NCBI RefSeq assembly: GCF_003363715.1
Contig: NZ_QREV01000006.1
Location: 62,001 to 126,000 of the forward strand
Source: Parabacteroides acidifaciens
Lineage (GTDB): Bacteria > Bacteroidota > Bacteroidia > Bacteroidales > Tannerellaceae
Direction: 5' to 3'
Length of the DNA: 64,000 bases
The notes under the pieces were generated by a model. That model was not told the DNA's origin. It ran no database searches and saw only the letters and a list, made by a program, of their open reading frames with translations. Positions 9,105-43,785 of the stretch are shown piece after piece (the stretch's first letter is position 1; each line of letters begins with the position of its first letter). The translations under genes and the position numbers were made by a program.

Positions 9105-10397
9105 ATGAGTTATTTGAACAGAGTATCAGATAAAGTCCTATTAGAACGCTTAGAAGCCTTCGGAGCCGTTCTAATTGAAGGTCCCAAGTGGTGTGGAAAA
9201 ACAACAACCGCCGAACAAGTAGCACGAAGTGTCATTAAAATGCAAGACACAGATATGCGCGATGAATATCTTGCAACAGCAGCATCCAAACCATCGCTTT
9301 TGCTATTAGGAGAGACCCCAAGGTTGATAGATGAATGGCAAGATGCACCAGTACTTTGGGATGCAGTCCGCACAATGGTAGATAAGCGACAAGAGCAAGG
9401 ATTATATATTCTTACAGGTTCTAACGCTGTAAAAAAAGACCAGATTTTTCATTCGGGTAATGGACGCATTTCACGTATGAATATGTTACCGATGAGCCTT
9501 TGGGAATCACAAGAATCCAATGGCAAAATTTCTCTAAAAGAATTGTTTGACAACCCAGAATATGACATAGACGGAATTACATCTGATATGCAAATCGAAG
9601 ATTTGATATATGTTGCTTGTCGTGGAGGGTGGCCAGCAACAGTCAATATAAAGAGCTCAAAAGCAAAACTTCTTGTGGCAAGAAATTATGTTGACACTGT
9701 TTGTCGTGAGGATATTTCACGAGTTGATGGTGTGCAAAGAGATGAAAGATTGGCACGAATGATTCTTAGGGCCTATGCCCGGAATATATCCACTTTAGTA
9801 AAAAACACTTCGTTAATGGCAGATGTAACTTCTTCCGGTGAAGTATCTTGTACTCCACCTACATTTGAAGATTATGTTACAGCTTTTAAACATCTGTTCG
9901 TGATATGTAACATTGAAGCATGGTGTCCCGCCATTAGGAGCAAAACAGCTATACGTAGCGGTCTAAAGCGTTCTTTTATAGACCCATCTATCGCTGTAGC
10001 CTCCTTAGGATTAACCCCGGAAGTTCTTATAACTCAGCTAAAGACTTTTGGATTCATTTTTGAACAGATGTGCGTACGCGACCTTAAAGCTTATACACCT
10101 GATTTTAATAGTCATATCTCTTATTATCGCGACCGTTATAGTCTTGAAGCTGATCTTGTTCTTCATTTGGAAGATGGACGTTATGCATTGATTGAATGCA
10201 AATTAGGAAGTAACGAAATAAAAGAAGGAGCAAACCATTTGCTTGAAATTAAGCGTCTTATTAATGAATTCAACAAACAAGAGAAACAGGTTCCACTTCG
10301 AGAACCCGATCTTCTCATTGTTATAACTGGTGGGAAAATGGCTTACACACGCCCTGATGGAGTTAAGATTATTCCATTAGCTTGTCTTAAAGATTAA
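9105..10397 (+). CDS. AAA ATPase with DUF4143 domain, second copy
   Basis: The 430-residue P-loop protein has Walker A GPKWCGKTTTAEQV near residues 26-39, Walker B LIDEWQDAPVLWD near residues 73-85 and GSNAV as a sensor. The C-terminal half has SYYRDRYSLEADLVL and YALIECKLGS, the D/E-x-K core of the DUF4143 nuclease-like fold. The divergence from the 1999-3348 protein is large, so the two are ancient paralogues or separate acquisitions. The codon use is AT-rich. It stands alone between the OMP remnant and repeat copy A. Role unknown. Confidence 0.85.
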   Translation: MSYLNRVSDKVLLERLEAFGAVLIEGPKWCGKTTTAEQVARSVIKMQDTDMRDEYLATAASKPSLLLLGETPRLIDEWQDAPVLWDAVRTMVDKRQEQGLYILTGSNAVKKDQIFHSGNGRISRMNMLPMSLWESQESNGKISLKELFDNPEYDIDGITSDMQIEDLIYVACRGGWPATVNIKSSKAKLLVARNYVDTVCREDISRVDGVQRDERLARMILRAYARNISTLVKNTSLMADVTSSGEVSCTPPTFEDYVTAFKHLFVICNIEAWCPAIRSKTAIRSGLKRSFIDPSIAVASLGLTPEVLITQLKTFGFIFEQMCVRDLKAYTPDFNSHISYYRDRYSLEADLVLHLEDGRYALIECKLGSNEIKEGANHLLEIKRLINEFNKQEKQVPLREPDLLIVITGGKMAYTRPDGVKIIPLACLKD

Positions 10398-10452: not shown

Positions 10453-10969
10453 GGGTACTTATTGTAAAAAACGTATTTTCCAAGATCAGAAGAAGCCCAA
10501 TTCCAAACAAATGTTAACCCGATTTTCAGACGTCAAAAAGGAACTTTTCCGCCTTTTTTGAGTGTTTTCAGCCATTACGACCGTCCTCTTTGCCATTACG
10601 ACCGTGCTAATGTGTAGTGCACTCGGCACCTCGCGAAGATTAGCACGGTCGTAATGGCGATTTGGACGGTCGTAATTGAAAAGTGGACCGTCATAAGGGC
10701 AAAAAAGCACCTGAATTTCCTTGGGATATTTGGAACGCCGTCCGTTTTGTTTTCAAATATTCGATTCTCCGGGAGTTAAGGTTTATCACTTTGCCGGCAT
10801 TTCTACCTTTCGGCAATCAAATTGTACACTTTCCGGAATGGCCCCGGCACCTCATCTCATCCGATGTCAGCCGGAAAGATTAAAACCATGCAAAAAGTCA
10901 ATCCAAAATGGATCAAGATTTCGGACGAAATAGAAAAACAGCCCAAAAAGGGGGTTATTGTAATCTATT
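10453..10969. repeat. Dispersed ~517 bp intergenic repeat, copy A
   Basis: This noncoding stretch is copied at 43268-43785. The core 10571-10793 aligns without gaps to 43386-43608 with about 11 differences in 223 bp by eye; the flanks are looser. It contains four copies of ATTACGACCGT, two direct and two inverted. The inner pair is a perfect 20 bp inverted repeat (10592-10611 and 10639-10658) around a 27 nt loop; an outer pair of 13 bp encloses it. Both ends carry TTATTGTA. No transposase is present. A weak open frame (10683-10883) has differences spread evenly over codon positions, so coding is unlikely. The rest of the 664 bp between genes shows nothing else. Confidence 0.85.
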
Positions 10970-11061
10970 AGGTTTTCAGGACGTTCAAAACTCGAGATAT
11001 TTGAAACAGATTCCTTCTTTTTCCAGAATAATCGTATATTTATCAGCAAAAGCGTGAGCAT

Positions 11062-43267: not shown

Positions 43268-43785
43268 AGGGACTTATTGTATAAAACGCTTTTTTCAGGC
43301 TCAAAAGACAGGCGAAACAAAACAAATGTTAATCCGCTTTTTTGACTTCAAAAAGGGACTTTTTCACCTTTTTTGAGCGTTTGCAGCAATTACGACCGTA
43401 CTCTTTGCCATTACGACCGTGCTAATGTATAGTGCACTCGGCACCTCGCGAAGATTAGGACGGTCGTAATGGCGATTTGGACGGTCGTAATTGGAAAGAG
43501 GACCGTTTTAAGGGCAAAAAAGCACCTGAATTTCCTTGGGATATTTGGGACGCCGTCCGTTTTATTTTCAAATATTCGATTCTCCGGGAGTTAAGCTTTA
43601 TCACTTTGTCGGTGTTTTCGCTTTTCGGTAATCAAATTGCATACTTTCCTGGACGACCTCGGCATCTCTTTTCATCTGTTGTCAGACAAAAAAGCTAAAA
43701 TCGTAAAAAAAGTCAATCCAAAATGAATCAGAATTTCAGACGAAATAGAAAAACAGCCGAAAAGGGGGGTTATTGTAAAATTTAA
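43268..43785. repeat. Dispersed ~517 bp intergenic repeat, copy B
   Basis: Partner of 10453-10969. The inner inverted repeat is at 43407-43426 and 43454-43473 with one uncompensated mismatch; the outer pair is CAATTACGACCGT / ACGGTCGTAATTG, 13 bp perfect. In copy A the outer pair also pairs over 13 bp but with a frame shifted by one base, so pairing is kept although bases differ. It starts 2 bp after the ybeY stop and fills nearly the whole 600 bp gap to 43868. Confidence 0.85.

Follow-up and report, generated by a model that had tools for sequence, protein, structure and literature searches.

The 64,000-nucleotide stretch analysed here (the window) carries two copies of a noncoding repeat, both on the plus strand and 32.8 kb apart. 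Copy 1 runs from CTTATTGTA at 10458 through TTATTGTA ending at 10962, and copy 2 occupies positions 43273–43777; each measures 505 bp, counted from the C of CTTATTGTA through the A of the terminal TTATTGTA. Both were identified by alignment and with nhmmer (match C101:72458-72961 for copy 1). The two sequences align from end to end, as the first-pass annotation of the window had proposed, with 86% full-length identity; the annotation's count of about 11 differences in a 223-bp core proved exact (11 mismatches, 95% identity). Its description of the repeat as noncoding and intergenic also holds, since each copy sits in a gap between genes and is crossed by no conserved reading frame. Copy 2 starts 7 bp past the stop codon of ybeY. 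The gene immediately upstream of copy 1 (9105–10397) encodes an AAA_14/DUF4143 ATPase, and the stretch containing this gene does not align to the syntenic region of a relative, G014.

Several features can be placed within the copies, all on the plus strand. The 5′ end, a G-run followed by CTTATTGTA (10453–10466), was defined from a flank alignment of 69 copies and by pattern search; the 3′ end, GGGGGTTATTGTA (10950–10962), located by flank alignment and patterns, is a direct repeat of it. Folding places the central hairpin module of copy 1 at 10574–10676, where ATTACGACCGT repeats are inverted around GTGCACTCGGCAC, and the same position in the two-copy alignment gives 43389–43491 for copy 2. 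No block is better conserved across subfamilies and species than the internal box CGATTCTCCGGGAGTTAAG, which lies at 10762–10780 in copy 1 and was found by pattern search at 43577–43595 in copy 2. A conserved 3′ block (..AAAAAGTCAATCCAAAAT..GACGAAATAGAAAAA..GGGGG) was recognised at 10881–10954 from the conservation profile and patterns, and beyond the terminus lies an optional 3′ extension (TTTGCAGGAGGTTCAAAACTTG..; 10963–11013).

A modular repeat family and its distribution

The repeat belongs to a family dispersed through the window's own genome (G000; 5.10 Mb in a draft assembly of 144 contigs), where the window element has 97 matching pieces. Pattern searches counted at least 119 five-prime ends, at least 127 internal boxes and at least 103 exact three-prime ends; reversed-pattern controls for ends and box gave 0 matches in G000, so the likeness of the copies is not due to chance. 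Among the matches listed, the union of patterns marks 147 places, of which the 62 at contig ends are probably halves of unresolved copies. A fair estimate of family size is ~120–150 dispersed copies of 505 bp, about 1.2% of this 5.1-Mb Parabacteroides genome, in place of the two copies of ~517 bp annotated at first. Because many contigs end in the element, it accounts for many of the assembly breaks in G000. A literature search found no description of a 505-bp Parabacteroides family; the family is real and apparently undescribed, and its spacing is its surprising property.

Full copies are 503–505 bp long in all three of the subfamilies. Their 5′ end reads GGGGG-CTTATTGTA-(T/A)AAAACGYATTTTT and their 3′ end GACGAAATAGAAAAA..GGGGG-TTATTGTA; the shared terminal TTATTGTA reported earlier is real, and a G-run precedes it at most ends. 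The ends form a direct repeat, GGGG-TTATTGTA, with 12 of 13 bp matching. Terminal inverted repeats, already described as lacking, were not found: the best inverted match of the ends is internal and at the 95% level of shuffles. Many copies stop at TTATTGTA, a large subset carries a further ~45–85 bp of 3′ extension, and in an older subfamily the 3′ end is shorter. The element is multicopy, short, noncoding and intergenic, attributes that it shares with MITEs in general; a hidden gene was rejected because the copies have no reading frame in common and show no three-base periodicity. One of 94 full copies overlaps a scored ORF, by 26 bp, and as all gene arrangements are represented, a fixed position upstream of promoters was rejected. 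Orientation relative to the G-rich strand is unbiased (23 of 44), on which ground a replication-polarity motif of KOPS or Chi type was discarded.

By full copies, the subfamilies number 49 (A), 21 (B) and 11 (C), and both window copies belong to A. The three have the same ends, box CGATTCTCCGGGAGTTAAG and length and a similar 3′ half, and differ in the central module (~130 bp), which folds into a hairpin in each (DNA fold z = −9.3, the subfamily A consensus, −3.3 and −2.6 for A, B and C); the modules of two relatives gave z = −5.1 and −2.5. A and B have inverted modules, and C has degenerate repeats of about 21–22 nt. Some A and B copies stand head to head, mostly around a ~210-bp palindromic spacer (CCTGCCGCAGGCTCTCTTTTGCCGTTTCG..), in composites of ~1.2 kb. 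Between head-to-head B and A copies this spacer is 92–97% identical from locus to locus (L003:1293-1500, L028:1290-1496, L100:1494-1701, L064:1018-1228 and L013:406-615), and the arrangement, read from its sequence, would be a duplicated composite.

Other repeats lie beside the element. At L005, L118 and L154 the element is enclosed by a longer unit bounded by inverted ends, CTCACCCGATAATCATTGGGGATAA .. TTATCCCCAATGATTATCGGGTGAG; this unit has the look of a MITE in its own right that carries the element as cargo. A AACTTTCAACTCTTAACTTTCAACTATCCGG repeat directly precedes the G-run in ~20 copies (for example L009, L020 and L119) and also occurs without the element at L091 and L315, and a dispersed repeat around ATTGCATGGGCATGGAATTTCGGATGGATGGGCATGGA is present in the 5′ flanks of L135, L139 and L156 and in the 3′ flank of L137.

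By the strict 3′-end pattern, the family occurs in 5 of 39 Parabacteroides genomes, with at least 103 copies in G000, 23 in G002 (the species from water deer), 6 in G014, 4 in G013, 3 in G021 and 0 in the other 34. A search of 393 genomes from the order turned up next to nothing: one short unconfirmed match in another genus of the same taxonomic family and one chance-like match. A scan of named genomes, covering species other than the window's own, placed all matches in one water-deer Parabacteroides MAG. The plasmid, phage and viral collections PLSDB, INPHARED and IMG/VR held no match to the element, and an origin of that kind was rejected. Divergent relatives of the box were found in further Parabacteroides genomes. 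Intergenic sequences in G016 (L182, L191, L197), G015 (L189, L195, L200, L203) and G017 (L183) end in CGATTCTCCGGGAGTTAAG + AATACAAAATGTCA and have upstream repeats of a different kind; they are probably distant relatives of the family.

Conservation and history of the copies

A core better conserved than its flanks had been taken in the first-pass annotation as a sign of selection, and the pattern recurs in the three subfamilies. Uniform change would leave 1.6 invariant sites in subfamily A, where 185 of 503 were observed. Divergence measured in windows follows a similar profile in A, B and C (Spearman 0.70–0.81): it is lowest at both the 5′ end and the 3′ block, in the hairpin, and in and around the box, and highest at element positions 21–40 and 341–440. 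In each of the three subfamilies the box has fewer private (singleton) mutations than the variable segment, though in A they are near uniform. G013, G014 and G021 have kept one copy at orthologous positions, and there it also bears out the suggested selection, being conserved at ~72–97% per 60-bp window against 61–68% just downstream; a second orthologous locus had no excess conservation over neighbouring DNA. The conserved blocks and the retention at orthologous sites could equally signal a host function.

Presence and absence were compared with one genome per species, the nearest species, G014, being ~17% divergent. A copy present in G014 is missing from the corresponding place on the window's own contig (about 630 vs 36 bp). 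The best presence/absence site in this comparison has ~90 bp of extra difference beyond the element, and a clean empty site is absent. The sequence TTATTGTA is constant at both ends of the element and in solo sites; it is one candidate for a duplicated target sequence, GGGGNTTATTGTA being the other. Solo TTATTGTA sites, at L174, L319, L320 and L160, have typical 5′ or 3′ surroundings and lack the interior, which suggests that the interior was lost between the terminal direct repeats. The closest pair of subfamily A copies differs by 6.8%; as no A pair is closer, the family would now be quiet in this genome, and it appears not to have been recently active there, apart from a possible duplication of composites.

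Spacing along the chromosome

The spacing result rests on the draft assembly of one genome, G000. With pairs within 1.6 kb merged into one locus, the matches listed give 69 within-contig gaps, the shortest of which is 9.5 kb. Among these matches, gaps below 5, 10, 15 and 20 kb number 0, 1, 3 and 11, against 5.0, 11.8, 19.1 and 26.0 expected, and 0 of 10,000 random placements reached the observed minimum gap or the counts below 10, 15 and 20 kb. An independent scan with profile models covered 1.68 Mb of contiguous sequence, favouring the longest contigs; it recovered one copy missed by the pattern listing and gave 34 gaps, of which one was below 15 kb compared with 9.6 expected (0 of 20,000 placements matched). 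The over-dispersion also holds when placements are limited to non-ORF sequence as an intergenic null. The only close neighbour in the 1.68-Mb scan is a 109-bp remnant, 1.1 kb from a full copy. Head-to-head pairs ~140–340 bp apart are the exception to the repulsion, and several of them resemble duplicated composites. Gaps average 38 kb, yet one stretch of 160 kb (G000:C68:245-160237) has no copy; its GC content is uneven (0.41–0.51), and it is possibly acquired DNA.

Around an existing end, the transposons Mu, Tn7 and Tn3 avoid inserting over a range of several kb up to tens of kb, and Mu cis-immunity is reported to peak around 5 kb and to decay to 25 kb (PMC7350765). The spacing found here, known from copy positions only, resembles target immunity of this type. 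Those transposons are autonomous and have their own machinery (PMC7350765), whereas the 505-bp element is known without candidate machinery.

Mobile element or chromosomal site

We see about an even chance that the family is a non-autonomous, MITE-like noncoding element, now quiet, whose past spread avoided occupied neighbourhoods in a manner like target immunity. A trans-acting recombinase or transposase recognising the ends, box and hairpin would have spread the copies; new ones would have been kept out of roughly 10–20 kb around an existing copy, a range in line with that reported for cis-immunity of phage Mu; interiors may occasionally have been lost through recombination between the terminal direct repeats; and the minimum divergence in subfamily A is what would be expected if the family is quiet at present. 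In favour we count copy number and fixed length, intergenic dispersal, the solo sites, the absence of a G014 copy from the window's own contig, the conserved blocks that recur between subfamilies and the spacing, as well as the same hairpin trait in each subfamily despite unlike sequences. The MITE-like option of the first-pass annotation stands as far as high copy number, noncoding and intergenic character, presence/absence between species and solo scars are concerned, but not for terminal inverted repeats, which are missing. Against the MITE-like reading we count this lack, together with that of a defined target duplication and of a transposase-bearing relative; the lack of recently duplicated single copies, and with it of any direct sign of movement; the Y1 family PF01797 missing from three element-bearing genomes; the presence/absence site that is not cleanly empty; and the close head-to-head pairs. 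No transposase lies between element ends in the copies examined or in the 1.68 Mb scanned. The first-pass annotation had named two finds that would speak against an unclassified repeat, a relative with a transposase and a match to an IS, MITE or Rfam family already named; neither turned up in these searches.

The family behaves like a modular, non-autonomous element in the manner of BOX and BrickBuilt. The BrickBuilt MITE of Porphyromonas gingivalis, from the same order, is likewise strictly intergenic with a limited host range, has a constant leader and tail around a central repeat region, and makes up 0.44% of its genome compared with about 1.2% for the 505-bp element (PMC4596501). BrickBuilt has IS5-type TIRs (GAGACC..GGTCTC) and a tandem minisatellite whose 23-nt unit varies in number, is 84–991 bp long and occurs in 19 copies (PMC4596501), whereas the 505-bp element has no TIR, a fixed length, hairpin modules differing in sequence and far more copies (~120–150). 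In a by-eye comparison with that report (PMC4596501), the IS5-type TIR GAGACCTTCGCA / TGAAAGGTCTC was not seen in the consensus ends. The 23-nt minisatellite between leader and tail was not found in A, B or C. Pneumococcal BOX is likened here by architecture only. In the parts of its description drawn on here (PMC3049150), BOX is a modular dispersed element (boxA/boxB/boxC) with strong secondary structure, the product of an old burst and now apparently dormant; it differs from the 505-bp element in size and module make-up, its length varies, and those parts do not report a spaced distribution.

A further reading, possible and held tentatively, is a chromosome-marking site or the product of a self-spacing dispersal system of no known kind. 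The family would then be a non-autonomous element without TIRs, with copies that repel one another over 10–20 kb in any orientation and a swappable hairpin acting as specificity module for a dedicated protein.

That the copies are chromosome sites, maintained by selection at one per 20–45 kb and recognised through box and hairpin by a DNA-binding protein, we regard as rather unlikely; this would allow a mobile origin, with maintenance for a function such as nucleoid organisation, a domain boundary or similar. The over-dispersed spacing, an unexpected point in favour of the chromosome-organising site suggested at first, agrees with it, as do the box and ends conserved in all subfamilies, the scarcity of private mutations in the box relative to the variable segments, and the orthologous copy that exceeds adjoining intergenic DNA in conservation in three species. 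The private mutations of subfamily A are near uniform, however, and the second orthologous locus has no such excess; copies do not favour the G-rich strand, the central module is freely replaced, and a family with 0 copies in 34 other Parabacteroides by the strict 3′-end pattern is unlikely to serve a general housekeeping role. That few genomes of the genus have the family, and that its modules can be exchanged, weighs against an essential role.

The spacing could also result from purging in an ordinary MITE, in which nearby copies would recombine and one of them, or a chromosome segment, would be lost until distant copies were left, an explanation we find quite improbable. Repeats of 505 bp are able to recombine and the solo scars point to local losses, but inverted neighbours, which invert rather than delete, are equally depleted: same-orientation gaps (n = 27) have a minimum of 9.5 kb and opposite-orientation gaps (n = 32) one of 11.8 kb (p = 0.44). 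Equal spacing in both orientations means that deletion between direct repeats fails to explain the spacing, and a recombinational purge of direct repeats was rejected as its cause. Moreover, the one other dispersed palindrome family frequent enough for the spacing test, which served as control in the 1.68 Mb scanned, is clustered if anything, not repelled.

Very doubtful, too, is a structured noncoding RNA, each copy being transcribed and working either as an sRNA or, in cis, as an attenuator or terminator for adjacent genes. The hairpin is strong (MFE z about −5 for the plus strand, besides the value for the subfamily A module as DNA) and is preserved in three unlike module sequences, yet folding is about equal on both strands, compensatory changes within subfamilies are few, promoter or terminator signal is not above shuffles, and there is no fixed relation to gene orientation. 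No Rfam family matched at the gathering threshold, sub-threshold matches being generic miRNA-type hairpins, and an Rfam identity was rejected. The immobile structured RNA among the initial suggestions is the weakest of them, the hairpin being equally readable as a DNA cruciform.

A REPIN-like element mobilised by a RAYT, a REP-associated Y1 transposase, is highly improbable and largely refuted: its modules would be palindromic and its dispersal intergenic, as here, and G000 has one Y1 gene, but RAYT genes (PF01797), present in G000 and G021, are absent from the element-bearing G002 (23 copies), G013 and G014, a distribution that misfits that of the element. The single Y1 gene (at 1501–1836 of L282, G000:C61:12211-15546), with several GCCCTTACAGGGC palindromes, different from the element's, on both sides, is an ordinary RAYT accompanied by REPs of its own and has no relation to the 505-bp element. 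REPIN/RAYT families are also non-autonomous, palindromic, intergenic and lineage-specific (PMC3116915); the 505-bp element is several times longer than a REPIN, has no paired REPs and, unlike those systems, lacks a RAYT in three of its five host genomes.

Small bacterial repeats are usually considered scattered or clustered, and here ~1% of a genome is made up of copies that keep a minimum spacing, their ends being fixed and their hairpin exchangeable. Two questions become testable in this family: whether a repeat that is not autonomous can possess target immunity, and whether spaced repeat arrays are co-opted for chromosome organisation.
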